Below are positions 14,324 to 28,326 of a DNA stretch of 64,000 nucleotides, piece by piece. Below the pieces are notes generated by a model that was not told the origin of the DNA, ran no database searches, and worked only from the letters and a program-made list of their open reading frames with translations. Position 1 is the stretch's first letter, and every line of letters starts with the position of its first letter. The stretch is from Rhodobacter sp. CZR27 (GTDB lineage Bacteria > Pseudomonadota > Alphaproteobacteria > Rhodobacterales > Rhodobacteraceae). The DNA is taken from contig NZ_CP023548.1 of NCBI RefSeq assembly GCF_002407205.1, forward strand, positions 2,008,501-2,072,500, written 5' to 3'. The translations under genes and the position numbers were made by a program.

Positions 14324-14827
14324 TCAGGGGCCACCGCCCTCCAGCTCGTTCATCACCAGCTGGCGCGCCCTGCTGACGCGGCTCTTCACCGTTCCGACCG
14401 CGCAGTCGCAGATCCGCGCGGCCTCCTCGTAGCTTTCGCCCAGCATGACGACGAGGATCAGGATCTCGCGGTAATGCGTCGGCAGGCGGTCGATCGCCGC
14501 CATCAGTTCCTGCCCCCGCACCGCCCATTCCTGCGAGGGCTGCACCGACATCTCGCCCGAGACGCAGTCGGCCGCGCCCGTGCGCTCGCGCGCGCTGATG
14601 CGGATCCGGGTATAGAAGGTGTTGCGCAGGATGGTGAAGAGCCATGCCCGAAGCCGCGTTCCCGCCTGGAACTTGTCGACATTGGCCAGCGCCTTCAGCA
14701 GCGTCTCCTGCACGAGGTCGTCGGCATCCGCCTGGTTGCGGCTGAGCGAGCGGGCGTAGGCGCGCAGGGCCGGGATCAGATCGACGACATCGGGAATGAT
14801 CGATCGGGGAGGGGTCTGGTCCGTCAC
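14324..14827 (-). CDS. ecfG: General stress response sigma factor EcfG
   Basis: ECF-type RNA polymerase sigma factor of the EcfG (ECF15) class, which transcribes the general stress regulon of alphaproteobacteria. Region 2 contains DDLVQETLLKAL and LRAWLFTILRNTFYT; region 4 contains YEEAARICDCAVGTVKSRVSRAR. I start it at GTG 14827 (167 aa) because AGGAG lies 6 bases upstream at 14838-14834. The in-frame ATG at 14857 has no ribosome site and would leave almost no leader after the promoter at 14893-14869. That promoter is a perfect EcfG site, so the gene is probably autoregulated. NepR-like genes are next door. No phyR is visible in the window. Confidence 0.9.
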   Translation of the reverse strand: MTDQTPPRSIIPDVVDLIPALRAYARSLSRNQADADDLVQETLLKALANVDKFQAGTRLRAWLFTILRNTFYTRIRISARERTGAADCVSGEMSVQPSQEWAVRGQELMAAIDRLPTHYREILILVVMLGESYEEAARICDCAVGTVKSRVSRARQLVMNELEGGGP

Positions 14828-14868
14828 GGGCGGCTCCTGGCTCTTCTCGGCTCTCACCTTGGGAATTC

Positions 14869-14893
14869 AACGTCGGTTCGCTGGGGCGGTTCC
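14869..14893 (-). promoter_or_regulatory. EcfG-type promoter of ecfG
   Basis: On the minus strand GGAAC (14893-14889), 16 bp, CGTT (14872-14869): a perfect match to the published EcfG consensus. A start near 14862 gives a leader of about 35 nt to the GTG start at 14827. Confidence 0.8.
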
Positions 14894-14954
14894 GCCTTAG
14901 CCGTTGCGCTTCCCGCGCGGCCGTCGCAAAACAGAAGCCGGGGCAGGTAGGAAC

Positions 14955-15170
14955 ATGACGGGAAAACGCGATCAGGGCACGGGTCAGCCGGTCGGGCAGG
15001 ACGAGTTGCGCGACCTCGGCGAGGAACTCCTGCGGGCCATCGAGGCAGAGCCGGTGCCGGAACCGATCCTCGAGCTTGCACGGCGCCTTGCCCATGCGCT
15101 CGGCGTGAGGAGCGGGGCCGAGCCGGCGGGCCACCCCCCGCACGTCGCCGGCGAGCGCAACGACTCCTGA
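14955..15170 (+). CDS. NepR-like small protein (possible second anti-sigma)
   Basis: The 71-aa product is divergent from ecfG. Its centre, LGEELLRAIEAEPVPEP followed by ILELARRLAHAL, resembles the NepR core pattern in which a Glu-Pro-Val-Pro turn joins two helices. It lacks the Leu-Arg-x-x-Tyr of classical NepR, so assignment is tentative. The start is supported by AGGTAGGA just upstream. Its upstream region has no EcfG promoter on the plus strand. It is convergent with a better NepR candidate across a bidirectional terminator. It could alternatively be an unrelated conserved small protein. Confidence 0.55.
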   Translation: MTGKRDQGTGQPVGQDELRDLGEELLRAIEAEPVPEPILELARRLAHALGVRSGAEPAGHPPHVAGERNDS

Positions 15171-15250
15171 ACATCCGCAGGTCCCGAAGGACAGGCATGC
15201 CCTTCGGCGACAGGCGCATCACAGTAGCGCCCCGCAGGTGTCCGCGACAA

Positions 15251-15283
15251 AAGAAAAGCGGCTCCCGAAGGGAGCCGTCTTTC
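15251..15283. terminator. Bidirectional intrinsic terminator
   Basis: An 8-bp perfect stem CGGCTCCC/GGGAGCCG with a GAA loop (15259-15277) is flanked by AAAAGAAAAG on the left and TCTTTC on the right, so both strands have a T tract. It separates the convergent ends of the two NepR-like genes. Confidence 0.8.
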
Positions 15284-15330
15284 GCGCAAGCCGGGATGCA
15301 GGCAGCGGGCGGGCGCCCGGGCGCGGGCGA

Positions 15331-15501
15331 TCAACTGCAGGATCGCTGCCGCGCCTGCTTGCTGGCGATCCGCCCCAGCAGCACCGCGAAGCGGTCGTCC
15401 ATCGCTTCAGGCAGCGCCAGATCATAGGCGCGGCGCAGATTGTCCTCGACGTGTCTGTTCACCAGGGCCTCGCCCTGGTCATCCTGCATGTAGGAAAACA
15501 T
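15331..15501 (-). CDS. nepR: Anti-sigma factor NepR
   Basis: Small protein that sequesters EcfG until phosphorylated PhyR binds it. The 56-aa product matches the NepR core very well: VEDNLRRAYDLALPEAMDDR and then FAVLLGRI fits the pattern L-R-x-x-Y, acidic residue, P-D-R-F, L-L. The start ATG at 15501 has a GAGG-like site upstream. A GGAAC box lies at 15561-15557, but the element at -10 distance (TCTT) is poor, so stress control of this gene is uncertain. The gene lies within 0.5 kb of ecfG but in a separate transcript. Confidence 0.75.
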   Translation of the reverse strand: MFSYMQDDQGEALVNRHVEDNLRRAYDLALPEAMDDRFAVLLGRIASKQARQRSCS

Positions 15502-15904
15502 TGCCTCGGGTCCGTTTCTTGAGTCTCTCGGCTCACAAGACCCGGGGGTGCGAATTGTTCCGTCCCGCTGCCGCCGGTCGTCGCCGGACGCGGGGACCGC
15601 GGATTGCAGGGCGGTTTCGGGCTCCAGCGGATGTTCAGGCTTGCGCACGGCGGGTTCCTCCTGCTGCCGAAGCCCGCTGTCCCGCCGGCCCGCCCCCGAT
15701 GGGCCCGGCACGCCGATATTCGCCGTTGCGAAAAGTCATTGCATCTGTCCCGGTTTTGCCCCTTGTTCGCGCAGCAACTCGCAATCGGGCAGGAGGTTCC
15801 CCTGCGTGATGCGTTTTCTGGCGCGCCGTGCCGGAATGCCGCACAGCCGGAACCTCGCTTCGGGCCCGACGTTGGCAGGGGACTGCTGCCGCAGCGAGGG
15901 TTCC
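15502..15904. other. Gene-free region between nepR and ligD
   Basis: 403 bp between divergent genes. Apart from the ligD promoter at 15849-15873 and a GGAAC box at 15557-15561 on the minus strand, I see no gene or strong structure. Confidence 0.5.
15849..15873 (+). promoter_or_regulatory. EcfG-type promoter of ligD
   Basis: GGAAC (15849-15853), 16 bp, CGTT (15870-15873). A perfect consensus match about 30 bp upstream of the ligD start codon. Confidence 0.8.
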
Positions 15905-18388
15905 ATGTCCGGCATCGTCTCCCGCCCCGATCTCGGAGCCTACAACGCGAAACGGGATTTCCGCCGCACGGCGGAGCCCGCGGGACAGGTTCGCGCCGGG
16001 ACAGGCGGACACGGCTTCGTGGTGCAGAAGCACGCGGCAACCCGGCTGCACTGGGACTTCCGGCTGGAATGGCAGGGCGTCCTGCTCAGCTGGGCTGTCA
16101 CGCGGGGCCCCTCGGCGGATCCTTCGGCCCGGCGCCTGGCGGTGCGGACCGAGGATCATCCTCTCGATTACGCCGGCTTCGAGGGCACGATCCCCAAGGG
16201 CGAATATGGCGGCGGCACGGTGATGCTGTGGGACCGCGGCACGTGGTCCCCTCTTGGCGATGTCGCCGAAGGCCTGCGCGAGGGGCGGCTGAAGTTCGTG
16301 CTGCAGGGCGAGCGGATGCGCGGCGCGTGGATGCTCGTCCGCATGAAGCCGCGCAAGGGCGAGCGGTCGGAGTCGTGGCTGCTGATCAAGGAACATGACG
16401 ACCACGAAAGCGACGAGACCGAGGAGCTCGTGCGCAGCCACCTGACCTCGGTCACCACGGGGCGCAGCATGGAGCAAATCGCCAGCGGGGCGAAGTCGCG
16501 CAAGCATCGCTCGCCCCGGGCCGACCCGCCGGCTTTCAGGCCGCTCCAGCTGGCGCGGCTGGTGCCGGCGGCGCCCGAGGGGGACGAGTGGCTGCACGAG
16601 ACCAAGTTCGACGGCTATCGCTGCCTTGCCGCGCTTGGACAGGGCGCTGTGCGGCTTTACACGCGGACGGGGCTGGACTGGACCGACCGCTTCGGCAGCC
16701 TCGTGCCCGACTTCGGCCGACTGAAGCTGCGGTCGGCGCTGATCGACGGCGAGGTGATCGCGCCGGGCGTGGCCTCGGGCGGCTTTTCGGATCTTCAGGC
16801 GCGGCTGAAGACGGGGCTTCCGCTGGCATTCATTGCCTTCGACCTGCTGGAACTGGACGGAGCCGACCTCGCGCCACGGCCGCTTCTTGAGCGCAAGGAG
16901 CGGCTGGAACGGCTGATCGGCGCGGGCGTTGGCGCGATCCGCTTCTCGACCCACATTCTCGGCCACGGTGAGGAGGTTCACCGCCGCATGTGCGAGGCCG
17001 CGCAGGAGGGCATCGTCTCGAAGCGCGCCTCCTCGCCCTACTCGGGCAGCCGCAACGGCGACTGGCTGAAGGTCAAGTGCGGCCTCAGGCAGGAATTCGT
17101 GATCTGTGGCTGGACCCCCTCGACCAAGCCCGGCCGTCCCTTTGCCTCGCTGGTGATGGGCAGCTTCGAGGCTGGCCGCCTCGTGCATCGCGGCAACGTG
17201 GGCACCGGCTTCGGCGCGGAAGTCTTCCGTCGGCTGATGCCGCTTCTGAAGGCGCGGGCGCAGCGCGCAAGCCCGTTCCGTCCGGTCCCGGCCGAGGCGA
17301 AGGGCGCGCGCTGGGTGCGGCCCGATCTGGTGGCCGAGGTGAAACTGGCGGAACTGACCGCGGATGGCCGGATCCGGCACGGCGTCTTCGTCGGCCTGCG
17401 CGAGGACAAGCCCGCGCCCGAGGTACATCTGGAACGGCCGGAGACGGAGGAGACCATGGCGCAGCCGAGCGACGAGGTCCGCGTGGCGGGCGTGCGGATC
17501 AGCCATCCGGAGCGGCGGATCTTCGACCGCCCGCCTGTCACCAAGCTCGAGGTGGCGCAGCATTACGAGGCCTTGGCCCCGCGCATCCTGCCCTTCCTGA
17601 AGGATCGGCCGGTGTCGCTGCTGCGCTGCCCGGACGGTGCGGGCGGCGAGTGCTTCTTCCAGAAGCACCGCACCAAGGGCATGCCCGAAGCCATCCGCAC
17701 CGTCACGGTCGATACGAAGGACGGCCCGGAGGAGTTCGTGACCCTGCCCGATGCAGCGGCCCTGGTGGCCGCGGCGCAGATGGGCGCGATCGAGTTCCAC
17801 ATCTGGGGCTCGCGCAATCGCGCGCTCGACCGGCCCGACCGCATGGTCTTCGACCTCGACCCGGACGAGGGGCTGGGCTTCGACCGCGTGCGCGCCGCGG
17901 CCGAGGAGCTGCGCGAGCGGCTGGAGGCGCTTGGCCTGCCCTCCGTCCCGATGCTCTCGGGCGGCAAGGGTATCCACGTCATCGTGCCGCTGAAGCCGAA
18001 GGCCGCCTGGGACAGCGTGAAGCTCTTCTCGCGGGCGCTGGCCACCATCCTCGCAGACGAGGCGCCGGAACGCTACACCGCGACCATGTCGAAGGCCGAG
18101 CGCAAGGGGCGGATCTTCATCGACTGGCTGCGCAACGACCGCGGCGCGACCGCCGTGGCGCCTTATGGCCTGCGTGCGCGGCCCGGGGCGACGGTGGCCG
18201 TGCCGCTGACATGGGAGGAACTCGGCCAGGCACGTTCGGCCGGGGACTGGGACATCCGGTCGGTGCGCGACCGGCTGACCCTGCCCTGTCCGCTGGCCGA
18301 GGGGGGACGGAAGGCGGTCACGCTGGGCCCGGCGGTGCTTCGCCGGCTCGAGCGGCATGTGGCGGCCGCCGGAAAGGAGGAAGGATGA
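15905..18388 (+). CDS. ligD: Multidomain ATP-dependent DNA ligase D
   Basis: End-joining enzyme for DNA double-strand breaks, 827 aa, order PE-LIG-POL. The phosphoesterase domain (about residues 35-170) has FVVQKHAATRLHWDFRLEW and GTIPKGEYGGGTV. The ligase domain begins with the nucleotidyl-transfer motif TKFDGYR near residue 233 and runs to about 500. The primase/polymerase domain (about 530-820) includes MVFDLDPDEG, the acidic catalytic block, and MLSGGKGIHV. ATG at 15905 is preceded by GCGAGGG and lies behind a perfect EcfG promoter; sequence upstream in frame is not LigD-like. The usual partner Ku is absent from the window. Stress-sigma control of ligD would put break repair in stationary or stressed cells. 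Confidence 0.93.
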   Translation: MSGIVSRPDLGAYNAKRDFRRTAEPAGQVRAGTGGHGFVVQKHAATRLHWDFRLEWQGVLLSWAVTRGPSADPSARRLAVRTEDHPLDYAGFEGTIPKGEYGGGTVMLWDRGTWSPLGDVAEGLREGRLKFVLQGERMRGAWMLVRMKPRKGERSESWLLIKEHDDHESDETEELVRSHLTSVTTGRSMEQIASGAKSRKHRSPRADPPAFRPLQLARLVPAAPEGDEWLHETKFDGYRCLAALGQGAVRLYTRTGLDWTDRFGSLVPDFGRLKLRSALIDGEVIAPGVASGGFSDLQARLKTGLPLAFIAFDLLELDGADLAPRPLLERKERLERLIGAGVGAIRFSTHILGHGEEVHRRMCEAAQEGIVSKRASSPYSGSRNGDWLKVKCGLRQEFVICGWTPSTKPGRPFASLVMGSFEAGRLVHRGNVGTGFGAEVFRRLMPLLKARAQRASPFRPVPAEAKGARWVRPDLVAEVKLAELTADGRIRHGVFVGLREDKPAPEVHLERPETEETMAQPSDEVRVAGVRISHPERRIFDRPPVTKLEVAQHYEALAPRILPFLKDRPVSLLRCPDGAGGECFFQKHRTKGMPEAIRTVTVDTKDGPEEFVTLPDAAALVAAAQMGAIEFHIWGSRNRALDRPDRMVFDLDPDEGLGFDRVRAAAEELRERLEALGLPSVPMLSGGKGIHVIVPLKPKAAWDSVKLFSRALATILADEAPERYTATMSKAERKGRIFIDWLRNDRGATAVAPYGLRARPGATVAVPLTWEELGQARSAGDWDIRSVRDRLTLPCPLAEGGRKAVTLGPAVLRRLERHVAAAGKEEG

Positions 18389-18627
18389 GGGATGTGGAGG
18401 ACGAGACCCTGGAGGGGCGGCTGATCGCCCAGCGCAAGGTCATCGCGCGGCTGGTGGCGCTGGCCGGCGACGAGGCGCTGCGCGCCTGGCTGGAGGAACG
18501 CAGCGTGATGCAGGACCAGCAGGAGGACCCCGGCGCGGTGCCTTCGCCCGGCGTCGGCATCGAGGTCGCCATCGCCGAGGAGATCCGCCACATCCGCGAC
18601 GAGGCCGAGCGGCACCGCCCCGGGTGA
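18385..18627 (+). CDS. Small acidic protein cotranscribed with ligD
   Basis: Unrecognised 80-aa protein. The N-terminal half is a predicted helix (EGRLIAQRKVIARLVAL), the middle is rich in Gln, Asp and Glu, and the C-terminal half holds another charged helix (VAIAEEIRHIRDEAERHR). There is no membrane segment and no Cys. The ATG overlaps the ligD stop (ATGA) and has GGAGGAAGG ahead, so coding status and coupling to ligD are well supported. A role with LigD is inferred only from the operon. Confidence 0.75.
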   Translation: MRDVEDETLEGRLIAQRKVIARLVALAGDEALRAWLEERSVMQDQQEDPGAVPSPGVGIEVAIAEEIRHIRDEAERHRPG

Positions 18628-18690
18628 CTTCCGGTTGCGAACGCAGGCGAGGTCGGCGGTCTGGACATGTCGGCGACCATGGCGCGGCCC

Positions 18691-18878
18691 GGCCTCGACA
18701 CGCGCGGGATCAGTTCCCGTCGCAGCAGCCTTCGGGCCGCAGGTCACGCGGGATCAGGCGGGTGATGAAGGTCGGTGCGAGTTCCGGCCTGCCGGCCGCG
18801 ACACGCGCGCGGGGTCAGGTCGTCGGCGCAGGGCGGGTGGCGGCGGCGGTGAGGCCGCGACACGCGCACGGGGTCAGG
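18691..18878. repeat. Degenerate direct repeats reaching the mgtC stop codon
   Basis: A 26-bp unit occurs at 18794-18819 and 18853-18878 with one mismatch (core GACACGCGC, then GGGGTCAGG), 59 bp apart. Shorter relatives lie at 18691-18713 and about 18737-18757. The last copy spans the mgtC stop codon at 18874-18876, so the array looks like repeated duplication of the 3' end of mgtC. No gene is seen in this interval. Confidence 0.65.
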
Positions 18879-19629
18879 ACGTGCCGGCCCCCTCGCCGTC
18901 CTGCAGCCGCAGGCCGCTCGGGTCCTCGACCGGGACGATGACGAAGCCCAGGACGCTCTCCTCGGCCGCCAGCGCGTCCGACAGGCGGTCCAGCTTTTCC
19001 ATGCCGTGGGTGAAGATCGCGGTGGACAGGACCAGCGTGCCGGAGGGTCGGCTCAGGCTGCGGCTGACGGCGCGCACGCTCAGCCCCTCGCGGCGCAGCA
19101 GGTGGCAGAGCGCGGCCGCGCCGAAGCCCGAGCCGTCCCTGACCGTGACGCGCAGGCGGATCTCGGTGCGGATCGGAAGCAGCGCGAAGATCAGCCGCAG
19201 CGCGACCAGCACGATCAGCGTGGCGGCGGTGCCGGCGACCGCCAGCCAATACATGCCGATCCCATAGACGATGCCCAGCGCCGAGACGATCCAGAGCGAG
19301 GCGGCGGTGGTCAGCCCGTGGACCGAGGCGCCCTCGCGGAAGATGACCCCGGCGCCGAGGAAGCCGATCCCGGTCAGGATGCCATGGGCCATCCGCGACG
19401 GGTCGGCGACGATCTGCGTCTCGGGCAGGAAGTTGACCGTCCATTCCCCCTGCCGTGCCGCGGCAAGCGTCAGGATCGTGGCGCCGAAGCACACGAGCGC
19501 ATGGGTGCGCAGTCCGGCGGGCTTGCCGCGCACCTCGCGGTCCAGGCCGATCAGAAGGCCGGTCACGAGGCTGCTCAGCATCGGCAGCGCGATGTCCTGG
19601 GCCAGAAATCCGTGGAAAAGGCCGGTCAT
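18874..19629 (-). CDS. mgtC: MgtC/SapB family membrane protein
   Basis: Inner-membrane protein of the MgtC family, 251 aa. The N-terminal hydrophobic half holds four to five helices with the family motifs GLLIGLDREVRGKPAGLRTH and GIGFLGAGVIFREG. The C-terminal cytoplasmic part (from about residue 150) is ACT-like. MgtC proteins are linked to survival under low magnesium and acid stress; some act on the ATP synthase. I start it at ATG 19629, because upstream residues are not conserved in character and a perfect EcfG promoter lies at 19684-19659, 30 bp upstream. It is divergent from the response regulator gene. Confidence 0.88.
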   Translation of the reverse strand: MTGLFHGFLAQDIALPMLSSLVTGLLIGLDREVRGKPAGLRTHALVCFGATILTLAAARQGEWTVNFLPETQIVADPSRMAHGILTGIGFLGAGVIFREGASVHGLTTAASLWIVSALGIVYGIGMYWLAVAGTAATLIVLVALRLIFALLPIRTEIRLRVTVRDGSGFGAAALCHLLRREGLSVRAVSRSLSRPSGTLVLSTAIFTHGMEKLDRLSDALAAEESVLGFVIVPVEDPSGLRLQDGEGAGTS

Positions 19630-19658: not shown

Positions 19659-19684
19659 AACGCAGGCCCCGGCCGGATCGTTCC
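19659..19684 (-). promoter_or_regulatory. EcfG-type promoter of mgtC
   Basis: On the minus strand GGAAC (19684-19680), 17 bp, CGTT (19662-19659). A perfect consensus match, about 30 bp before the mgtC ATG. Confidence 0.8.
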
Positions 19685-19784: not shown

Positions 19785-20168
19785 ATGACCCCCGCCGATC
19801 CCGCCCCGCCCGCTGACGAACGACCGCTTGTGCTGGTGGTGGAGGACGACCTGATCCTCGGCATGACGCTGGTGGACGATCTCGAGGAGGCGGGCTTTGC
19901 CGTCGCGGGTCCTGCCCGCAGCGTGGCCGAGGCCATCCGCCTTCTTGCGCACCAGCGTCCGCAGGCAGCGCTCCTCGACATCGACCTGCGGGGCGAGACC
20001 TCTTTTCCCGTTGCCCGGGCGCTTCAGGCTCAGTCGGTGCCCTTCGCCTTCGTGTCCGGCAATCCGCCGTCGTCGCTGCCGCCCGAGTTCGAGACGGCGA
20101 TGCTGCTGGAGAAGCCGGTCAGCCCGCTGCTGCTCGCGACGGCGCTTGAAAAACTGATGCAGGGCTGA
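19785..20168 (+). CDS. Single-domain response regulator (REC)
   Basis: A 127-aa stand-alone receiver domain. LVLVVEDDLILG carries the acidic pair, ALLDIDLRG the phosphoacceptor Asp (near residue 65), and LLEKPVSP the conserved Lys-Pro. The block VPFAFVSGN resembles the P-F-x-F-A-T-G-Y stretch of the so-called FAT GUY receivers (SdrG, MrrA), which feed the general stress pathway. That resemblance and the location in the EcfG island suggest a role in signalling to the stress response; this is inference. The start has GGAAGGAGAG upstream, and a one-mismatch EcfG promoter lies in the divergent region shared with mgtC. Confidence 0.85.
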   Translation: MTPADPAPPADERPLVLVVEDDLILGMTLVDDLEEAGFAVAGPARSVAEAIRLLAHQRPQAALLDIDLRGETSFPVARALQAQSVPFAFVSGNPPSSLPPEFETAMLLEKPVSPLLLATALEKLMQG

Positions 20169-20184: not shown

Positions 20185-21105
20185 TCACTGCGCGCGATCC
20201 TCGTCCTGCCAGCCCGCGCGGGGCTCCGTCGGCTCGGGACGGCGCGCAGGATGCGGCGGGCGTGGCCTCGACGCCTCGCCCTGGCTCAGCACCGCCGCCA
20301 GAACCCGCAGCGGCGCCGAGCGGTGCAGGTCATGGCCCGAGTCCGCGATCTCGAGCAGGTCGAGGTCGGGCACGACGGCCTTCAGCCACGGCAGAAGCGC
20401 GCCGTGTGGCGCGATGCGGTCCGAGCCGCCCGTAACCGCCAGGACCGGGCAGCCCACCTGCGGCAGTCGCTGCATCGCGGTATCGAGCGAGCGCAACTCC
20501 GCCCGCGTCGCGGCCAGCGCCTGATCCCGAAGCAGATGCTGCAATGGCCCGTCCCGCAGAAGCGGCGGCGGCGCGTCCGGCGCGATCAGCGAGGCCAGCG
20601 CCTGCGCACCCGGCAGCGGCATGAGATGCGGCAGCAGCCGCCGGCGCAGGAGCGGCCCGATCCCTGGCATCGCCAGCAGCCCGAGCACCGGGACAGGCCC
20701 GCGCGGCGCACGGCAGAGCGGCGCAAGCAGCGTCACCGCGCGGACCTTGCCGGGATGGGTGGCCGCCAGCCAGAGCGCCTGCCCCGCCGCCAGGGAATGC
20801 GCGACGACCTGGACCGGCGCCAGCCCGAGGACATCGATCAGGTCCGCCAGCCAGTCAGCCGCGGCGCGTGGGCCGGCGTCCGGGATGGGCTCCGTGTAGC
20901 CATAGCCCGGGCGGTCGGGGGCGATCCAGCGGATGCCCTCGACCGGCGGCAGCGAGCCGAGGATCTCCTCGCCCAGACTGCCGCAGCCGTGCAGCAGCAG
21001 AACCGGGCGCCCCTCGCCGATCGAGTGCAAGTGCACGAAGCGGCCGCGCAGCCGAAGCGCCCTGCCGATCCGGAGCTTGCGGTCAGGAGTCGGGTCAGGG
21101 CGCAC
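20185..21105 (-). CDS. Alpha/beta-fold hydrolase
   Basis: A 306-aa hydrolase of unknown substrate. LLLHGCGSLGEE forms the oxyanion region, VAHSLAAG the nucleophile elbow (Ser in A-H-S-L-A, a departure from G-x-S-x-G), GGSDRIAPHG the acid and ADSGHDLHR the catalytic His. The C-terminus is a Pro/Arg-rich tail. The best start is GTG 21105 with AGGGGAGG six bases upstream; longer frames reach through a gene-poor region without coding character. No membrane anchor is evident. It is convergent with the response regulator and downstream of two tiny genes on the same strand. Confidence 0.75.
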   Translation of the reverse strand: MRPDPTPDRKLRIGRALRLRGRFVHLHSIGEGRPVLLLHGCGSLGEEILGSLPPVEGIRWIAPDRPGYGYTEPIPDAGPRAAADWLADLIDVLGLAPVQVVAHSLAAGQALWLAATHPGKVRAVTLLAPLCRAPRGPVPVLGLLAMPGIGPLLRRRLLPHLMPLPGAQALASLIAPDAPPPLLRDGPLQHLLRDQALAATRAELRSLDTAMQRLPQVGCPVLAVTGGSDRIAPHGALLPWLKAVVPDLDLLEIADSGHDLHRSAPLRVLAAVLSQGEASRPRPPHPARRPEPTEPRAGWQDEDRAQ

Positions 21106-21510
21106 GGTCACCCTCCCCTGGCGTCGCAGCATGCCGCGCCTGCGGCCGAGACCGTGCCGACCCGGGCTCCAAGCGCTGCAGGGGGACCCTGCCGGCGTCG
21201 GGACCTTCCGAACGGCCGGAGCCGCCGACTGCGGAGCTTTCGGGAATCGTGGCAACGGCACGCCGTCCGCTTCCGCCGGATCGGTGCCGTCCCGGGCGGG
21301 ACAGGCGGGGCGGTCTGGCGACCCTTGCGGGCTGCATCGCGGGGCTCCTCTGCGGGGGGCGCGAATGGACGGGCGGCTGGTCCAGGGCAATCCGGACCTT
21401 GCCCGGGTCATGCAGGCACGGCGCCGGCAGTTGCACGATGGCCCTGCGGAGGGTCCGCAGGGCCGGTCACTCGCACCCGGGCGAGGGTCGCCCGTTACCG
21501 GAACTTCGCC
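21106..21510. other. Gene-free stretch with a hairpin
   Basis: 405 bp between the hydrolase start and the 24-aa gene stop. It contains a perfect 11-bp inverted repeat with a GGG loop at 21440-21464 (arms GGCCCTGCGGA and TCCGCAGGGCC), a likely end point for the upstream minus-strand transcript. No T tract and no gene are seen. Confidence 0.5.
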
Positions 21511-21585
21511 TCAGCGCAGGCCGAGGAAAGAAAGGATCGCGATCACGATGACCACGAGGCCCACGATGTAGATGATGCTGTTCAC
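21511..21585 (-). CDS. 24-residue single-helix membrane peptide
   Basis: A very short gene: GTG start, 24 codons, TGA stop. The peptide is almost one hydrophobic helix: Asn-Ser-Ile-Ile-Tyr-Ile-Val-Gly at the start, a run of Val, Ile and Leu, and Phe-Leu-Gly-Leu-Arg at the end. AAGGAG lies 7 bases before the GTG (21585). It is too small for standard gene finders. I have the impression of near-identical peptides in related genomes but cannot verify this. It lies 34 bp downstream of the Pro-rich small gene and probably shares its transcript. Role unknown; small stress-induced membrane peptides often tune membrane complexes. Confidence 0.7.
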   Translation of the reverse strand: MNSIIYIVGLVVIVIAILSFLGLR

Positions 21586-21619: not shown

Positions 21620-21796
21620 TCAGACGGGAATGGTCGGCGGGATGCCGGGACCGTCGCCGGGAAGATCGGTTCCGCCCGGCGGCATGTCCGGACTCTCGCC
21701 CGGTGCGGGCAGCGGACCCGGCGTCACGTCCGGGGCCGGCCCTTCCGCGGGCAGGGGAGTCTGGCCCGGCACGGGCCGGGAAACAGGTGACGTCAT
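21620..21796 (-). CDS. Proline/glycine-rich small protein
   Basis: Unrecognised 58-aa protein in which about one residue in three is Pro, with Gly, Asp and Thr (repeating patterns such as PAPGESPDMPPGG). It is probably disordered. There is no signal peptide or membrane helix. The ATG at 21796 is preceded by AGAGGA. A one-mismatch EcfG promoter (21878-21853) lies about 50 bp upstream. Composition alone would not prove it is a gene; support comes from the ribosome site and the promoter. Confidence 0.5.
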   Translation of the reverse strand: MTSPVSRPVPGQTPLPAEGPAPDVTPGPLPAPGESPDMPPGGTDLPGDGPGIPPTIPV

Positions 21797-21988: not shown

Positions 21989-22013
21989 GGAACATTCACC
22001 GCGAGCGCCCGTT
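21989..22013 (+). promoter_or_regulatory. EcfG-type promoter of the BON-domain gene
   Basis: GGAAC (21989-21993), 16 bp, CGTT (22010-22013). A perfect match, giving a leader of about 55 nt. Confidence 0.8.
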
Positions 22014-22074: not shown

Positions 22075-23232
22075 ATGGCACAATCGAGGTTCGAAGGCCG
22101 CCAGCGCGGCTGGAACGACGAAGACCGCGGCTATGCGGGCGACAGGTTCCGCGAGGAGCGCGACGAGGGCTATCGGTCCCGCGACGAGAGCCGCCAGTCG
22201 CAACGCTATGGCGGGCGGGATGATCGGGATCGCTACCGCGACCGCTCCGAGTCCCGTTATCAGGATCGCGGCCCCGACGATTACGGCGCGCTCGGCTCGG
22301 ATTACGACCGCTGGCAGGAGGGCCGCGGCGGCCAGCGCGGCGGCTACGGCATGGAGGGCTCCGGCGGCTACGGTTTCGGCGGCCAGGACCAGCGTCAGGA
22401 CCGCTCCCGCAGCGATTACGGCTCGGGCTATGGCCGTGGCGAGTACGGATCGGGGTTCGGCCGGAGCGAGAACTGGTCGGCCGGAGGAGGCCGCGACCAG
22501 GGCCCGGACGCCGGCTTCACCCGCGGCGGCGACTATGGCGGCGATGCCGGACGCTCGTGGAGCGAAGGATCCCGGTTCGGCTCGGACAGGGATCGCTTCG
22601 GCCAGGGCTATGGCCAGGGCAACCGAGGTTACGGCCAAGGCTACGGCGAGCGGCGCGGCAGCGGCGACTATGGCGGCGAGCGCGGCTTCATGGAGCGGGC
22701 CGCCGACGAGGTGATGTCGTGGATGGGTGACGAGGATGCCTCGCGCCGGCGCGAGGCCGATCACCGGGGCAAGGGTCCGCGCGGCTACCAGCGCTCGGAC
22801 GAGCGCATCCGCGACGAGGTGAACGACCGCCTCAGCGATGACTGGCGGGTCGATGCCTCGGACATCGAGGTGTCGATCTCGAACGGCGAGATCACGCTGA
22901 GCGGCGAGGTCGCCTCGAAGATGGAGAAGCGTCGCGCCGAGGATTGCGCGGATTCCGTCTCGGGTGTGCGGCATGTGCAGAACAACCTGCGTGTGCGCGA
23001 CCCCGCCAGCCGGTCCGCCTCGGGCCAGACCGGTGAGTCCGCCTTCGGCAGCCCCGTGTCAGGCAGCTCGGCCTCGGGCGTGACGGGGACGGGTGCGGGA
23101 ACGCGCCAGGCGTCCGGCATGGGCCAGACGGCCTCCGGCTCCGCGACGGGCGGCACGGGATCGTCGGCCACGGGATCGGGCCTGTCCGGCAGCGGAACCT
23201 CGGGCACCGGATCGCGCGACACGCAGGCCTGA
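22075..23232 (+). CDS. BON-domain protein with Gly/Arg/Tyr-rich N-terminal region
   Basis: A 385-aa protein. Residues 1-220 are a low-complexity region of Gly, Arg, Tyr, Asp and Ser (many RGGYG, GYGQG and DRDR units), resembling condensate-forming or RNA-associated segments. A BON domain follows at about residues 245-305 (SDERIRDEVNDRL, then EVSISNGEITLSGEVASK and GVRHVQNNL); BON domains are thought to bind phospholipid or cell-envelope surfaces. The C-terminal 75 residues are Gly/Ser/Thr repeats. There is no signal peptide. ATG 22075 has GGAGGAG upstream and a perfect EcfG promoter. Similar SWFGDE-less BON proteins with disordered heads are common near stress genes in alphaproteobacteria. 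Confidence 0.82.
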   Translation: MAQSRFEGRQRGWNDEDRGYAGDRFREERDEGYRSRDESRQSQRYGGRDDRDRYRDRSESRYQDRGPDDYGALGSDYDRWQEGRGGQRGGYGMEGSGGYGFGGQDQRQDRSRSDYGSGYGRGEYGSGFGRSENWSAGGGRDQGPDAGFTRGGDYGGDAGRSWSEGSRFGSDRDRFGQGYGQGNRGYGQGYGERRGSGDYGGERGFMERAADEVMSWMGDEDASRRREADHRGKGPRGYQRSDERIRDEVNDRLSDDWRVDASDIEVSISNGEITLSGEVASKMEKRRAEDCADSVSGVRHVQNNLRVRDPASRSASGQTGESAFGSPVSGSSASGVTGTGAGTRQASGMGQTASGSATGGTGSSATGSGLSGSGTSGTGSRDTQA

Positions 23233-23283: not shown

Positions 23284-23319
23284 ATTCGGCCCTTCAGCAT
23301 CAGCAAGAGAGGACGAACC

Positions 23320-24072
23320 ATGACGACATTCAGAACAGGACTGATGGCGGGCGTCTCCGCCCTGCTGGCCACCGTTTCATCGGCCCAGACCACCACCTCC
23401 CAAGGCACGACGATGGGACAGGACTGGGAGGCGCCGGTGGTCGACACCTTCTTCAATCCCGGCGGCTCGTTGACCCTGCGCACCGAGGCCGAGATCCGTG
23501 AAAGCTGGGCCTCGCTGGGCGAGGCGCAGAAGCAGAAGGTGCGCGACGACTGCGCCTCCTTCGGCACCGCGGACGGCGCGGCAGCGGCGCCCTCGGGCGC
23601 GGGCGGCGCGACATCCACCGGCTCGTCCGGCGGAGCCTCGCCCTCTCCCGGCGTGCCGGAGGCGACCGATACCGGCGGTGCCGCAAGTCCGACGGGGCAG
23701 CCCACCGGCGACAGCGCGGCGCATGCGGCGGATGACACGACGGGCGATCCCGACACGAAGGTGAGCAACGTGGGCGAGAGCGACGCCACCACGGCCGACA
23801 TGGGCACCTCGGCCGGGCCGGGCACCTCGGATGAGCGCGTGACGGCGGCCGAGCAGGCGCAGGCCGGCGGCCCGGACGCGGAAGGCACCGGGGCCACGAC
23901 CAATCCCGATGCCGGCATGGCCACCACCGGCAGCGGCGAGGGCACCTATCAGGGCACCTCGACCTCGGCGGCCGGGGCCACGGGCGCCAACCAGGGCGAA
24001 CGCCGCTTCGATTCCGCCTCGGTCTCGCTGACCTCGTGGACGCAGATCTGCCAGATGGTCGAGAAGCTCTGA
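23320..24072 (+). CDS. Secreted low-complexity acidic protein
   Basis: Unrecognised 250-aa protein. It starts with a signal-peptide-like segment (MTTFRTGLMAGVSALLATVSSAQ, cleavage likely after SSA). A short ordered part follows (about residues 35-80, with FFNPGGSLTLRTEAEIRESW and a Cys in VRDDCASFG), then 150 residues of Ala, Thr, Gly, Ser, Pro and Asp. The end, SLTSWTQICQMVEKL, holds a second Cys that may pair with the first. Many secreted alphaproteobacterial proteins of this style are poorly described. The start has AGAGAGGACG upstream. It lies behind the BON gene and ends at a strong terminator. Confidence 0.7.
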   Translation: MTTFRTGLMAGVSALLATVSSAQTTTSQGTTMGQDWEAPVVDTFFNPGGSLTLRTEAEIRESWASLGEAQKQKVRDDCASFGTADGAAAAPSGAGGATSTGSSGGASPSPGVPEATDTGGAASPTGQPTGDSAAHAADDTTGDPDTKVSNVGESDATTADMGTSAGPGTSDERVTAAEQAQAGGPDAEGTGATTNPDAGMATTGSGEGTYQGTSTSAAGATGANQGERRFDSASVSLTSWTQICQMVEKL

Positions 24073-24102
24073 CACCTGCAACCCGCCCGCGCAGATCTCC
24101 AG

Positions 24103-24132: not shown

Positions 24133-24152
24133 GGCATAGGCCGCCCGATATG

Positions 24153-24185: not shown

Positions 24186-24241
24186 GAGTCGTTCGAAGGA
24201 CCTCGGCGACATGGCGGATGTGGGAACGCCGCCGCCGATGG
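24153..24241 (-). ncRNA. Predicted small RNA of about 89 nt
   Basis: Inferred from an orphan minus-strand intrinsic terminator at 24185-24153 and an EcfG-like promoter at 24272-24248, whose spacing predicts transcription from about 24241. The interval contains no open reading frame of substance. The 3' half is the 10-bp terminator stem with loop UGGUCCCCC; upstream, a GC-rich segment can fold locally. It is likely an independent small RNA of the stress island. It could alternatively be an antisense leader or a remnant. Confidence 0.5.
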
Positions 24242-24247
24242 CATTCC

Positions 24248-24272
24248 AACAGGCCGGAGGCCCCGAAGTTCC
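24248..24272 (-). promoter_or_regulatory. EcfG-like promoter of the predicted small RNA
   Basis: On the minus strand GGAAC (24272-24268), 16 bp, TGTT (24251-24248). One mismatch to CGTT. Confidence 0.4.
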
Positions 24273-24408
24273 CACGCGAGGCCCAAGAATTGTTCCCTCA
24301 CGTCGCCGCGATCGGGGACGTATTGGCTGTTTTTTGCCGACGTTCTACCCGGATTTGGGCGGACTTTGGCCGACGAACACCACCACCCCATACACCCCGA
24401 GGCCGGGC

Positions 24409-24433
24409 GAAACCTCGTCCGCTGCGATCCGTT
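24409..24433 (+). promoter_or_regulatory. Possible EcfG-type promoter of the PRC-barrel gene
   Basis: GAAAC (24409-24413), 16 bp, CGTT (24430-24433). One mismatch in the -35 element; predicted leader about 50 nt. Confidence 0.45.
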
Positions 24434-24491
24434 GGCACCTGCAGCAGGCCATTTGGCCCTGTCCAATTGCTTCAGGCGAAAGGATCGCAAG

Positions 24492-25061
24492 ATGAAGAAA
24501 ATGATTGCCCTCTCGGCCCTTCTGGCTTCGACCACGGCTTTTGCCGCGCTGGCCCAGGATGCCACGACGCCCGGGACGACACCGACGGCGCCGGCCACCG
24601 GCACCGATACGGGCACCACGACGACGCCCGCACCGGATGCCACGACGCCCGGCACCATGACCGGCGACGATGCCGCGACGACCACGCCCCCTGCCACCAC
24701 CGGGACCGGCATGACCGGCACGGATACCGCAGTCGGCGGCGAGGGCATGCAGGTACCCGAGGGCTTCTCGCTCTATGCGGGCGAGCCGATGACGGCCGAA
24801 GACCTTCAGGACGCCGACGTATTCTCGATGAACGATGAATCGGTCAGCAACATCTCGGACTTCGTGGTGGCCGAGGATGGCAAGATCGAACAGGTGATCT
24901 TCGACGTTGGCGGCTTCCTCGGCATCGGCGCGCGCAACGTGGCCGTGCCGTTCGAGGATCTGAAGATCTACACCAACCAGGATCAGAGCGACGTTCGCGT
25001 CTATGTTCCGATGTCGCGCGACGAACTGGAGGCGCTGCCGGAATATACTGCCGTCGAGTGA
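24492..25061 (+). CDS. Exported PRC-barrel domain protein
   Basis: A 189-aa protein with a signal peptide (about residues 1-21, ending AALAQ), a Thr/Pro/Ala-rich linker to about residue 80, and a PRC-barrel-like domain (about 88-175). The domain includes MTAEDLQDADVFSMNDESV, IEQVIFDVGGFLGIGARNVAVPFEDL and a terminal VYVPMSRDELEALPEY. Periplasmic PRC-barrel proteins of this layout are common in alphaproteobacteria and often stress-induced; their partner is unknown. ATG 24492 follows AAGGATCGCAAG. It is followed by a hairpin terminator and then the dehydrogenase gene. Confidence 0.85.
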   Translation: MKKMIALSALLASTTAFAALAQDATTPGTTPTAPATGTDTGTTTTPAPDATTPGTMTGDDAATTTPPATTGTGMTGTDTAVGGEGMQVPEGFSLYAGEPMTAEDLQDADVFSMNDESVSNISDFVVAEDGKIEQVIFDVGGFLGIGARNVAVPFEDLKIYTNQDQSDVRVYVPMSRDELEALPEYTAVE

Positions 25062-25092
25062 TCGCAGACCGCATCGGGTTCCGATGCAGACC

Positions 25093-25122
25093 GGCGCGCG
25101 GGGAAACCCGCGCGCCGTTTCC
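25093..25122 (+). terminator. Terminator hairpin after the PRC-barrel gene
   Basis: A perfect 10-bp stem GGCGCGCGGG/CCCGCGCGCC closed by a GAAA tetraloop, followed by GTTTCC. Very stable; modest T tract. Confidence 0.7.
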
Positions 25123-25158
25123 GTTGTCACTGGTCGCAGAGCAGCGGCGCCCGCACAG

Positions 25159-25183
25159 GAACCTTTTCCGGCCCGTCCCGTTG
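25159..25183 (+). promoter_or_regulatory. EcfG-type promoter of the PQQ dehydrogenase gene
   Basis: GGAAC (25159-25163), 16 bp, CGTT (25180-25183). A perfect match 28 bp before the start codon. Confidence 0.8.
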
Positions 25184-25211
25184 GCGAGACGTTCCGGAGC
25201 AGGAGTTCGCC

Positions 25212-27542
25212 TTGACCGCCATCACCGCCCTCGTCTTCGCCCTCGTCGGTTTCGGCCTTCTGATTCCGGGGGCGTGGCTCCTCCTTCTGGGCGGCAGCTG
25301 GTTCCACCTCCTCGCCGGCGCGGCGATCCTGCTGACGGCGGTGCTGATCCTCCGTCGCTCGGCCGCCGCCGTCTGGCTGTATGGGCTGGTGATCCTCGGG
25401 GCGCTGGTCTGGGCCGTGCGCGAGGTCGGCTTCGACTGGTGGCAGCTGATCCCGCGGGGCGGCGTGTTCGTGCTGCTCGGGCTCTGGCTCTATCTGCCGC
25501 TCATGCGGCGCCGGCTCGTGACCTCCAGCGGCGGGGTCGCGCCGGGGCTGCCGCTCGCCCTGCCCCTGCTGGCCGCCGTCGGCACAGCGCTCTGGTCCTG
25601 GACCGCGGACGAAGCCGGCCATCGCGGACGACTGCCGACCGAGGTGGTCAATCCCCAGCCCGACCTTGGCCCCACATCAGGGCCGGAGGACTGGCACCAG
25701 TATGGCCGGACCCAGTATGGCCAGCGCTACTCGCCCCTCGACCAGATCACCATGCGGAACGTGGGCGAACTGGTCGAGGTCTGGCAGTATCGCACCGGCG
25801 ACGTGAAGCTGCCGCAGGACGTGACCGAGACGACCTATCAGGTCACGCCGCTGAAGGTCGGCGACCGGCTGTTCATCTGCACGCCGCACAACCTTGCCAT
25901 TGCGCTGGACGCCGCCACCGGGGCCGAGCACTGGCGCTTCGATGCAAATTCGGGGCTGAATCCCGACCGGCAGCACCAGACCTGCCGCGGCGTGACCTAC
26001 TGGCGCGATCCAGCGCGCGAGGTGGGCGCGAGCTGTGCCGAGCGGGTCTATCTGCCCACTGCCGACGCCCGGCTGATCGCTCTGGACGCCGCCACTGGCG
26101 AGGTCTGCACCTTCTTCGCCGAGAACGGGACACTGCATCTCGAACACGGCATGCCCTACACGCCGGCCGGCTTCTACTACTCGACCTCGCCCCCCGTGGC
26201 GGTCGGCGGGCGGGTGATCATCGGCGGGGCGGTGAATGACAACTTCTCGATCCGGTCGCAATCCGGCGTGATCCGTGCGTTCGACGCCAACAGCGGCGCA
26301 CTGCTCTGGAACTGGGACAGCGGCAATCCCGACACCACCGCCCCTATCGACTGGATGAACGGCGAGACCTACACCGCGAACTCGCCGAATTCGTGGTCGG
26401 TGTTCTCCGTGGACGAGGAGCGCGGCCTTGTCTTCATCCCGCTCGGCAACCAGGTGCCGGATCAGCTTGGCATGGGACGCTCGGCGGCGGTGGAGGCGCA
26501 TTCCTCCTCGGTCGTGGCGCTCGATGTCGTGACGGGCGCGAAGCGATGGGTGTTCCAGACGGTTCACCACGACCTGTGGGACATGGACGTGCCCGCACAG
26601 CCCGTGCTGCTCGACCTGACCATCGGGGGCGAGAGCGTGCCGGCGCTGGTGCAGCCCACCAAGCAGGGCGACATCTATGTGCTGAACCGCGAGACCGGAG
26701 AGCCACTGCTGCCGGTGACCGAGGAACCCGCGCCGCAGGAAGGCGGCCTGCCCGAGGAGACCCTAGCGGCAACGCAGCCCACCTCGGCGCTGAGCTTCAA
26801 GCCGGCCGCGCTGCGCGAGCGCGACATGTGGGGCCTGACGATCTTCGACCAACTGGTCTGCCGCATCCAGTTCCACCGCCTGTCCTACGACGGGCGCTAC
26901 ACGCCCCCGTCGGTGGGCGGCTCCATCGTGCATCCGGGCAATTTCGGCACCTTCAACTGGGGCTCGGTGGCTGTCGATCCCGAGCGGCAGGTGATGTTCG
27001 GCATGCCGACCTATCTGCCGTTCGAGGTTCGCCTGGTGCCGCGCTCCGAGATCCCGCCCCCGGGGGCGGACACCAGGGCCAGCGAGCAGGGCCTGAACCG
27101 CAACGAAGGCGCGCCCTACGGCGTGATGATGGGACCGTTCCTCGGGCCACTGCAGGTTCCGTGTTCGGCCCCGCCCTGGGGCTATGTCGCGGGCGCCGAC
27201 CTGCGCACGGGCAAGATCGCCTGGATGCACCGCAACGGCACGGTGCGCGACATGACCCCGCTGCCCCTGCCCTTCAAGGTCGGCGTTCCGGGCATTGGCG
27301 GACCGATCGTGACGAAGGGCGGTGTGGCATTCCTCGCCGCTACCGTCGACAACGAGCTGCGCGCCTATGACCTGACGACGGGCGAGCAGCTCTGGCAGCA
27401 GCGGCTGCCGGCGGGTGGGCAGTCGACGCCCATGACCTACATGCTCGACGGGCGGCAGTTCGTGGTCATGGTGGCGGGCGGGCACGGCTCGGTCGGCACG
27501 GATCCGGGCGACTACGTGATCGCCTACGCCCTGCCCGAATGA
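25212..27542 (+). CDS. gcd: Membrane-bound PQQ-dependent dehydrogenase (glucose/quinate/shikimate family)
   Basis: Oxidises a sugar or cyclic polyol in the periplasm and feeds electrons to ubiquinone. The 776-aa protein has an N-terminal membrane part of about five helices (residues 1-135) and a periplasmic eight-bladed propeller. Propeller marks include DWHQYGRTQYGQRYSPLDQI, ALDAATGAEHWRFD and VHHDLWDMDVPAQPVL, the last a PQQ-enzyme hallmark. Translation starts at TTG 25212 with AGGAG six bases upstream. A perfect EcfG promoter lies 28 bp before it. No pqq biosynthesis gene is in the window, so the cofactor is made elsewhere or imported. Glucose is the default substrate guess; quinate and related compounds are equally possible. 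Confidence 0.9.
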   Translation: MTAITALVFALVGFGLLIPGAWLLLLGGSWFHLLAGAAILLTAVLILRRSAAAVWLYGLVILGALVWAVREVGFDWWQLIPRGGVFVLLGLWLYLPLMRRRLVTSSGGVAPGLPLALPLLAAVGTALWSWTADEAGHRGRLPTEVVNPQPDLGPTSGPEDWHQYGRTQYGQRYSPLDQITMRNVGELVEVWQYRTGDVKLPQDVTETTYQVTPLKVGDRLFICTPHNLAIALDAATGAEHWRFDANSGLNPDRQHQTCRGVTYWRDPAREVGASCAERVYLPTADARLIALDAATGEVCTFFAENGTLHLEHGMPYTPAGFYYSTSPPVAVGGRVIIGGAVNDNFSIRSQSGVIRAFDANSGALLWNWDSGNPDTTAPIDWMNGETYTANSPNSWSVFSVDEERGLVFIPLGNQVPDQLGMGRSAAVEAHSSSVVALDVVTGAKRWVFQTVHHDLWDMDVPAQPVLLDLTIGGESVPALVQPTKQGDIYVLNRETGEPLLPVTEEPAPQEGGLPEETLAATQPTSALSFKPAALRERDMWGLTIFDQLVCRIQFHRLSYDGRYTPPSVGGSIVHPGNFGTFNWGSVAVDPERQVMFGMPTYLPFEVRLVPRSEIPPPGADTRASEQGLNRNEGAPYGVMMGPFLGPLQVPCSAPPWGYVAGADLRTGKIAWMHRNGTVRDMTPLPLPFKVGVPGIGGPIVTKGGVAFLAATVDNELRAYDLTTGEQLWQQRLPAGGQSTPMTYMLDGRQFVVMVAGGHGSVGTDPGDYVIAYALPE

Positions 27543-27558
27543 TCGCGCCCGGCCCCGG

Positions 27559-27882
27559 TCACAGGGTGAGGGCCACAAGCACGATCAGCACCACCACCAC
27601 CACGAGGGCAATGATCGGCCCCAGCCCGCGGCGCTCCTCGTTCCCGGCCAGTTCGCCCACGGTGGTCGGTCGGGCGGGTGCGTTGGTGGTGGCCGCGGGG
27701 ATGCGGGACTCGTGCTCGCGCGCCATCGCGATCTGCTGGGGCGTCGGCGGGGTGCCTGCCGCCTCGTCATCGGTGCCCAGCGGCGCCGCGGCGGGGTCCA
27801 TGAAGGGCACCTTGTCGCCCGCACGGCCCCGGTCGATGTCGTGCCTCAGCCGGGCACTGGTGTTGCGGTTGTCCTCGGGCAT
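27559..27882 (-). CDS. Small protein with C-terminal membrane anchor
   Basis: Unrecognised 107-aa protein. About 85 polar, probably disordered residues (Asp, Arg, Pro, Thr) precede one strongly hydrophobic C-terminal helix made of Val, Ile and Leu (about residues 88-107). It is therefore a tail-anchored or C-terminally anchored protein facing the cytoplasm. ATG 27882 follows AAGGAGACGG. A perfect EcfG promoter lies at 27938-27914. It is divergent from another small membrane protein that also has an EcfG-like promoter. Confidence 0.72.
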   Translation of the reverse strand: MPEDNRNTSARLRHDIDRGRAGDKVPFMDPAAAPLGTDDEAAGTPPTPQQIAMAREHESRIPAATTNAPARPTTVGELAGNEERRGLGPIIALVVVVVLIVLVALTL

Positions 27883-27913
27883 GTCGCCGTCTCCTTCACC
27901 ACTAATGGGTGCC

Positions 27914-27938
27914 AACGGGGCGCAGCCGGCCTTGTTCC
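27914..27938 (-). promoter_or_regulatory. EcfG-type promoter of the tail-anchored protein gene
   Basis: On the minus strand GGAAC (27938-27934), 16 bp, CGTT (27917-27914). A perfect match, about 32 bp before the ATG. Confidence 0.8.
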
Positions 27939-27942
27939 CGGG

Positions 27943-27967
27943 GGAACCTTGCGGCGCGCCCCCGGTT
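27943..27967 (+). promoter_or_regulatory. EcfG-like promoter of the divergent small gene
   Basis: GGAAC (27943-27947), 16 bp, GGTT (27964-27967). One mismatch; nearly back-to-back with the minus-strand promoter. Confidence 0.5.
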
Positions 27968-28020
27968 GACTCCCCTTGAGGCGCCGGCATGCCGCCCGGC
28001 CGCAAGCAGAGGAGCCGCGC

Positions 28021-28326
28021 ATGTCCGCATCCGAAAACAACCTCGAGAAGCAGAAGCGCCGCCATCGCGGCCCGCTGATCGGGATCATCGTCGTGGTGGT
28101 CTTCGCACTGGGGCTGCTGCTCTGGTGGGTGACCTACGAGGTGGCCGAGGGCGAGGCGCCGCGCGGCAGCGACGCGCAGGTCGACGGCCGCACCGGCGAA
28201 GTCGAGGACCGGTCGCAGAGCGGCAGCGTCGAGGGCACAAGCCCGGCCGGCGCCGCCAATTCGCCCGCACCGCCCGCCACCGCACCGCCCGCGACCGCCC
28301 CGGCCACCCCCGCCCCGGCCAACTGA
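28021..28326 (+). CDS. Small single-pass membrane protein with Ala/Pro tail
   Basis: Unrecognised 101-aa protein. A basic N-terminus (EKQKRRHRG) precedes one membrane helix (about residues 18-38, GIIVVVVFALGLLLWWV), followed by an acidic segment and a C-terminal Ala/Pro/Thr run of about 30 residues. The positive-inside rule puts the tail in the periplasm. The start ATG follows AGAGGAGCCGC. It pairs divergently with 27559-27882 and shares the stress-type control region. Confidence 0.72.
   Translation: MSASENNLEKQKRRHRGPLIGIIVVVVFALGLLLWWVTYEVAEGEAPRGSDAQVDGRTGEVEDRSQSGSVEGTSPAGAANSPAPPATAPPATAPATPAPAN

Follow-up and report, generated by a model that had tools for sequence, protein, structure and literature searches.

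A second EcfG-type sigma factor within a probable general-stress regulon island of Cereibacter

Rhodobacter sp. CZR27 carries, in a 64,000-nucleotide stretch of contig NZ_CP023548.1 (positions 2,008,501 to 2,072,500; hereafter the window, whose coordinates are used unless a contig is named), a group of genes between positions 14,324 and 28,326 that a first-pass annotation, made from the sequence alone, described as a general stress response island in which an EcfG sigma factor lies among its own targets. The sigma factor gene, here called ecfG2 (14324..14857, minus strand), starts with a GTG at 14857, a later GTG at 14827 being possible, and its product matches the Pfam families Sigma70_r2, Sigma70_r4_2 and PhyR_sigma2 (62.8, 61 and 57.9 bits, all above the cut-off), with 5uxx as the best PDB sequence match (E 6.5e-36). 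Around it stand genes for a NepR-like protein, a receiver, and the LigD, MgtC, BON, PRC and pyrroloquinoline quinone (PQQ) dehydrogenase proteins that had been predicted, each of the last five being found by Pfam. In one genome scan the closest named relatives of EcfG2 came from Cereibacter (Luteovulum) azotoformans (94% identity), C. johrii (94%), C. changlensis (90%) and C. ovatus (80%), and a protein named from C. sphaeroides was 94% identical. The window was compared with the corresponding loci of genome G004 (locus L130), C. azotoformans (L132), C. johrii (L088), C. changlensis (L091) and, over a 20 kb stretch, C. ovatus. G004 looks like C. sphaeroides 2.4.1.

The intergenic regions of the island are unusually rich in EcfG-type promoter sequences. 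Using the box definition GGAAC-N16/17-CGTT (PMC7083833), with the reversed motif as genome-wide control and shuffled sequences as control for the window, we found nine perfect matches in the 64 kb, where shuffles averaged 0.54 and none of 100 reached nine. Six are intergenic island boxes and had all been reported before, one with a coordinate off by 1 (25158-25182, earlier 25159-25183). They precede ecfG2 (14869..14893, minus), ligD (15849..15873, plus), the mgtC-family gene (19659..19684, minus), the BON gene (21989..22013, plus), gcd (25158..25182, plus) and a gene for a 107-amino-acid membrane protein, tm27559 (27914..27938, minus), and each is aimed at a nearby start codon, as claimed, which begins 11 to 61 bases past the CGTT. 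A further perfect box inside ligD (16906..16930, plus) is probably a chance match because it has no counterpart in the G004 island. Across the whole genome (4,437,113 bases in 4 contigs) there are 98 perfect boxes compared with 37 reversed-control matches; the 98 boxes, a background of about 0.3 per 14 kb, reduce to 93 places once overlapping pairs are merged. The genome-wide scan proposed with the annotation, once run, showed the island to be far denser than this background and the densest 14 kb of the genome, with 7 of the 93 places within 13 kb. When the 93 places were positioned at random 2000 times, none of the placements reached seven in 14 kb and four reached six.

These promoters are conserved in position while their surroundings have diverged. 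The gene order from ecfG2 to tm28021 and glpD is kept in G004 and C. azotoformans, and C. johrii and C. changlensis have the same order as far as the fetched stretches reach. Counting the window locus itself, perfect boxes precede ecfG2 in 5/6 loci (the sixth, C. ovatus, has one mismatch, CGGT in place of CGTT), ligD in 5/5 loci that have the gene, mgtC in 5/6, the BON gene in 4/5 (a TGTT variant in C. changlensis) and gcd in two of the three loci compared (TGTT in the third). The tm27559 box is perfect in the window only and has GGTT variants in G004 and C. azotoformans. For the ecfG2, ligD, mgtC, BON and gcd boxes, spacer identity between the window and G004 is only 0.19 to 0.69. Four or five one-mismatch boxes had also been reported, and those that recur with type and distance kept precede p58 (GGAAC-N17-CATT at 54 to 61 bases, 4/4 loci), the PRC-barrel gene (GAAAC-N16-CGTT, with GAAAC in the -35 element, 58 bases before the start in the window and at 58 to 63 bases in 5/6 loci) and tm28021 (GGAAC-N16-GGTT, 53 bases before the start, in all three loci compared). 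The receiver gene has a one-mismatch box in 5/5 loci (GGAAC-N16-CATT, 29 bases before the start, in the window, and one-mismatch variants in all four relatives), but its evidence is weaker because type and distance differ between loci. No box within one mismatch precedes glpD in any of four loci. The CATT, GGTT and TGTT variants are known as frequent non-consensus -10 boxes, and templates carrying them were transcribed in vitro by the EcfG1 and EcfG2 holoenzymes of Sphingopyxis granuli (PMC7083833).

At the genome scale, 45 of the 98 boxes are matched by a perfect box at the orthologous position of G004, a best-BLASTN pairing that may include a few paralogous pairs. Ten of the 45 pairs were set aside as coding-like (upstream identity of at least 0.6), which leaves 35 conserved promoter-like pairs, five of them in the island; the 35 are probably an undercount because the canonical promoter on the phyR side is among the pairs set aside. 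On the main chromosome of G004 the island, with five boxes, is the only place with at least four boxes in 14 kb. Conservation in the genus makes the core observation of the first-pass annotation stronger than it was stated, and the bundling of DNA repair, envelope and sugar-oxidation genes around ecfG is likewise supported by the boxes and the conserved synteny. What had been read as the regulon of the island's ecfG is dense, non-random and conserved, but it is not confined to the island, since 86 of the 93 places lie elsewhere.

The sigma factor of the island is not the one linked to PhyR. EcfG2 is 48% identical to the PhyR-linked EcfG1. The PhyR-sigma2 profile matched four places in the genome above its cut-off, and the sole PhyR-like place, C1:3265389, lies 1.24 Mb from the island. 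At this locus PhyR stands beside EcfG1, NepR and a histidine kinase (genes named by eye, NepR by Pfam), and the NepR scores better than the NepR-like protein of the island. Because PhyR, the better NepR, EcfG1 and the kinase sit together at C1:3.26 Mb, we regard the ecfG of the window as a second paralogue and not as the EcfG of the canonical general-stress locus. EcfG1 and EcfG2 form separate clades: in a tree of 35 sequences (midpoint root, long branches flagged) five PhyR-linked EcfG1 sequences form one group (98/93) and six Cereibacter EcfG2 sequences another (100/99), and the two together are split from an ECF sigma factor of chromosome 2 (100/100). The idea of a general-stress island with ecfG therefore holds for the EcfG-type sigma factor and the dense boxes, but not for identity with the canonical locus.

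Two observations concern these other sigma factor loci. In the gap between phyR and nepR-ecfG1 (L035:9292-9323, C1:3265292-3265323) two perfect boxes overlap head to head and make up one palindromic divergent promoter, an arrangement also seen in L134, L135, L136 and L137. The chromosome-2 gene (L038:8173-8631, C2:503173-503631) encodes another ECF sigma factor matching PhyR-sigma2; the next gene is anti-sigma-like by eye, and no perfect box precedes the sigma factor gene in the 17 kb stretch L038.

Beside ecfG2 lies a gene for a 56-amino-acid protein (15331..15501, minus) that we consider a candidate anti-sigma factor of EcfG2, as hhalign matches it to NepR with probabilities of 97.2% and 98.0% (E 4e-11 and 2e-13). 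A PDB sequence search with its profile returned no NepR chain and no meaningful match. Ahead of its start (15502-15570, minus) is a GGAAC followed by an inverted repeat resembling CTTGTGA...TCACAAG, which recurs in five aligned Cereibacter sequences, is imperfect in the window and C. ovatus, and may be a leader hairpin or an operator. A second small gene (14955..15170, plus) encodes a 71-amino-acid protein that travels with ecfG2: it is kept at four further Cereibacter loci, leaves a weak trace in C. ovatus, and has relatives adjoining ecfG2 in L255 and L257. It is predicted to be a two-helix hairpin around an AEPVPE linker, the model consisting of two helices only (mean predicted local distance difference test score 74, 10 sequences in the alignment); Foldseek with this model gave nothing better than E 2, and a PDB profile search gave no meaningful match. 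Both genes had been called NepR-like. The 56-amino-acid protein merits the name by hhalign, but the 71-amino-acid protein was not recognised as NepR, with no Pfam match at 0.05 and hhalign probabilities of 0.2% and 2.3%.

The receiver gene (19785..20168, plus) encodes a single-domain receiver close to SdrG, with PDB sequence matches to 2lpm (titled 'two-component response regulator', presumably Sma0114; E 9e-14) and, over the receiver domain, to SdrG (5ieb, E 6e-13); its Pfam score is just below the curated cut-off. SdrG-type receivers carry a FATGUY motif, in whose place this protein and its orthologues have FAFVSG, FAFVTG or FAFLSG. The earlier assignment as a receiver thus stands, but as a single-domain protein and not as PhyR, for which the place 1.24 Mb away is the sole candidate.

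The remaining genes of the island are as follows. The end-joining DNA ligase/polymerase/phosphoesterase LigD (15905..18388, plus) has Pfam LigD_Prim-Pol, LigD_N and DNA ligase domains, and its end is overlapped by a gene for an 80-amino-acid protein (18385..18627, plus) that is kept beside ligD in G004, C. azotoformans, C. johrii and C. changlensis. Between the latter and mgtC, at 18690-18885, a short direct repeat, CGACACGCGCG..GGTCAGG, was noticed by eye in three or four copies. The mgtC-family membrane protein (18874..19629, minus; Pfam MgtC, E 2e-36) precedes the receiver gene, after which an alpha/beta hydrolase (20185..21117, minus; Pfam Abhydrolase_1) gave no tblastn match in the four syntenic stretches L130, L132, L088 and L091. 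A 24-amino-acid membrane peptide (21511..21585, minus) is identical at 24/24 residues in L130, L132 and L088 and 92% identical in L091 and L133; its gene likely forms one unit with that of p58, a proline-rich 58-amino-acid protein (21620..21796, minus) that is 74% identical in G004. The BON-domain protein (22075..23232, plus; Pfam BON, E 8e-20) is followed, also in four relatives, by a predicted secreted protein (23320..24072, plus; signal peptide by eye). A relative of this secreted protein occurs in a box cluster elsewhere in the genome (L036:11407-14663, C1:1106407-1109663) with a large catalase-like and a P450-like gene, both recognised by eye. Next come the PRC-barrel protein (24492..25061, plus; Pfam PRC) and gcd, a PQQ-dependent membrane dehydrogenase of the glucose/alcohol type (25212..27542, plus; Pfam PQQ, E 2e-222). 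The 107-amino-acid small membrane protein tm27559 (27559..27882, minus), conserved in G004 and C. azotoformans, has a relative that adjoins ecfG2 in L255, and the 101-amino-acid small membrane protein tm28021 (28021..28326, plus) completes the island. Beyond it, the same window has a perfect box at 59261-59285 (plus), 15 bases before an open reading frame called at 59276; C. azotoformans has a near-identical box (G001:C1:1256089) and C. ovatus a matched one. Rfam returned nothing at the gathering cut-off in the window, and no tRNA or tmRNA was found there.

Together, these features suggest a conserved Cereibacter general-stress regulon island built around EcfG2, with a NepR-like neighbour and without PhyR, a reading to which we assign a probability of roughly 0.75. 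We infer that EcfG2 and/or EcfG1 uses the island boxes, with an output depending on stress or stationary phase. Stress would activate PhyR, and NepR would be removed from EcfG1 at the distant canonical locus; EcfG-type sigma factors would be released via this PhyR/NepR1 switch and/or via the NepR paralogue of the island. EcfG1 and EcfG2 would then transcribe ecfG2 itself, a positive feedback, and RNA polymerase would start at GGAAC-N16/17-CGTT before ecfG2, ligD, mgtC, the BON gene, gcd and the small membrane-protein genes, while close box variants would serve the PRC gene, p58 and probably the receiver gene. In this scheme the NepR-like protein would probably restrain EcfG2, and the SdrG-like receiver would feed, and may tune, the phosphorelay.

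Several observations weigh against this interpretation. First, sequences alone do not tell which sigma factor reads the island boxes, and phyR, the mark of the canonical locus, is not in the island. Second, the fit between genes and boxes has gaps: the NepR-like gene has no perfect box (one-mismatch boxes lie about 270 bases upstream in 5/6 loci), the 71-amino-acid gene has no box within one mismatch in any of six loci, the hydrolase sits inside the island with no box noted, the secreted-protein gene has a perfect box in 0/5 loci and one within one mismatch in 1/5, and one of the seven perfect island matches falls in coding sequence. Third, the 56-amino-acid protein scores 16.5 bits with Pfam NepR, below the 25.7 cut-off. 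Fourth, judged from the 37 control matches, up to about a third of all genome boxes may be chance, and two further clusters (six places at C1:1,092,819-1,113,904 and five at C1:3,260,516-3,267,364) make high motif density non-unique to the island. Finally, EcfG2 persists in C. ovatus although no perfect box is left in the island there, and genome-wide the 45 motif matches of this species against 67 control matches show no excess.

The alternative that survives best, which we consider possible though clearly less probable, is that the island promoters are used by the canonical EcfG1 and that EcfG2 is a minor or accessory copy merely lying within the regulon. EcfG1 and EcfG2 would be expected to recognise a common box, boxes of this type also occur at the PhyR locus, and hierarchical or parallel EcfG paralogues are reported in other species (PMC7083833, PMC3892343). 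Such a role sits less well with the conservation of EcfG2, which is 93-94% identical between most species and on par with EcfG1, or with the decayed island of C. ovatus. In the 20 kb stretch, this species has ecfG2, the NepR-like gene, mgtC, the PRC gene, the 24-amino-acid gene and glpD; ligD, the receiver gene, the secreted-protein gene and gcd were not found in it, and the only BON match is partial, weak and outside the island. The EcfG1 locus of C. ovatus keeps five boxes, and EcfG1 is 93% identical, whereas EcfG2 has diverged to 80%. Of the 35 core boxes ten are kept, 0/5 in the island versus 10/30 elsewhere. The pattern would fit an EcfG2 tied to its island, seen in one lineage with few events; as proof that EcfG2 serves the island it has too few sites and was set aside. 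With its decayed island, C. ovatus lends itself to a natural comparison of how a regulon is shared out between duplicated sigma factors.

A less probable alternative is that the genes form a stress neighbourhood but are independent members of a scattered regulon, their clustering having no regulatory meaning. The two other clusters lack ecfG2, one holding the catalase (L036) and one lying at phyR (L035), and 30 of the 35 conserved boxes are outside the island. Evidence from beyond Cereibacter cuts both ways. Among 100 family genomes sampled, an EcfG2-like match at E 1e-40 occurs in 14, at least one of these matches, that in G061, being an EcfG1 next to phyR; five match EcfG2 at 60% or more, three of the five being Cereibacter-type. 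Of seven EcfG2 loci outside Cereibacter, three lack the tested partner genes, but a relative of ligD, BON or tm27559 (E 1e-6) lies near ecfG2 in the other four, compared with 2/20 control stretches (Fisher p 0.024). The test stretches ranged from 6.5 to 20.5 kb and included two, L090 and L092, that belong to other groups; the 20 kb controls came from four genomes only. The ecfG2 neighbourhood thus appears to recur outside Cereibacter in part and not as a whole. The synteny proposed across the Rhodobacteraceae accordingly extends, for gene order and promoter positions, across Cereibacter, but the complete island is not a general feature of the family.

A bolder reading, which we think unlikely, is that EcfG2 heads a self-contained, PhyR-less switch in which the NepR paralogue, the SdrG-like receiver and the 71-amino-acid protein, possibly a new class of small anti-sigma factor, would control EcfG2, which would drive a module recurring partly around ecfG2 in other Rhodobacteraceae. 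If true, it would account for the mild phenotype of a phyR deletion in R. sphaeroides, in which a membrane-stress role was seen but resistance to oxidative, heat or osmotic stress did not change significantly (PMC5830050). A chance origin of the boxes in GC-rich DNA, at which the reversed-control matches and the coding-sequence match might hint, is so improbable that we reject it, given the shuffles, the random placements and the recurrence of boxes with diverged spacers before orthologous genes in L130, L132, L088 and L091.

The probable regulon island centred on EcfG2 bears on C. sphaeroides 2.4.1. In G004, EcfG2 lies at 1,326,868-1,327,380, about 1 kb from ligD. LigD of 2.4.1 is RSP_2679 (PMC7183636), and RSP_2685 is placed at 1,330,900 in a table row (PMC9275681); because of its position relative to these two genes, the EcfG2 orthologue should be RSP_2681. 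RSP_1272 is named as the EcfG of R. sphaeroides, and RSP_2681 is also annotated as RpoE, with no stress role reported as of 2018 (PMC5830050). Among the matches listed in our literature search, which left most subscription journals outside, no description of a second EcfG in Rhodobacter or Cereibacter was found. With EcfG2 and its own promoter cluster at the probable RSP_2681, it can be tested directly which factor governs the general stress response of this model phototroph. A further prediction of the island reading is that ligD expression occurs mainly in stressed cells. Although Ku and LigD are annotated in 2.4.1, its end joining was inferred to be inactive or dysfunctional (PMC7183636), which could be explained if ligD were expressed only under stress. 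Two ku genes lie far from ligD (L206:1857-3690, C1:748357-750190, and L205:2051-3745). Neither is directly preceded by a perfect box in the window genome or in G004, so end joining as a fully co-regulated set was rejected. In both genomes a GGAAC-N16-GGTT box does lie 7-8 bases ahead of the start of one ku gene, but this candidate is only suggestive, as it falls in conserved sequence of a possible preceding gene; for the other ku gene a scan of 350 bases gave no box within one mismatch.

The closest known system is the canonical phyR / nepR-ecfG-kinase locus, RSP_1271-1274 in R. sphaeroides (PMC5830050), with which the island shares an EcfG-type sigma factor, a NepR-type neighbour and GGAAC-CGTT promoters. 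Unlike that locus, the island has neither phyR nor a kinase, its NepR-like gene is separate from ecfG2 and not in an operon with it, and its sigma factor shares less than half of its residues with EcfG1, at the 48% identity given above. Methylobacterium extorquens, too, has multiple EcfG and NepR paralogues in a single genome, and the available part of the account describes no island of targets there (PMC4814048). In Rhizobium etli no anti-sigma factor or response regulator gene is described near ecfG2 in the excerpt available (PMC3892343), unlike the island, and the accessible portions of the R. etli and S. granuli accounts describe no cluster of target genes around the paralogue (PMC3892343, PMC7083833). 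Paralogous EcfGs (PMC3892343) and stress-controlled ku-ligD (PMC7083833) are already known. As in the island, the second EcfG of R. etli (PMC3892343) and of S. granuli (PMC7083833) shares its box with the first, and the EcfG regulon of S. granuli likewise includes ku-ligD and envelope genes (PMC7083833).

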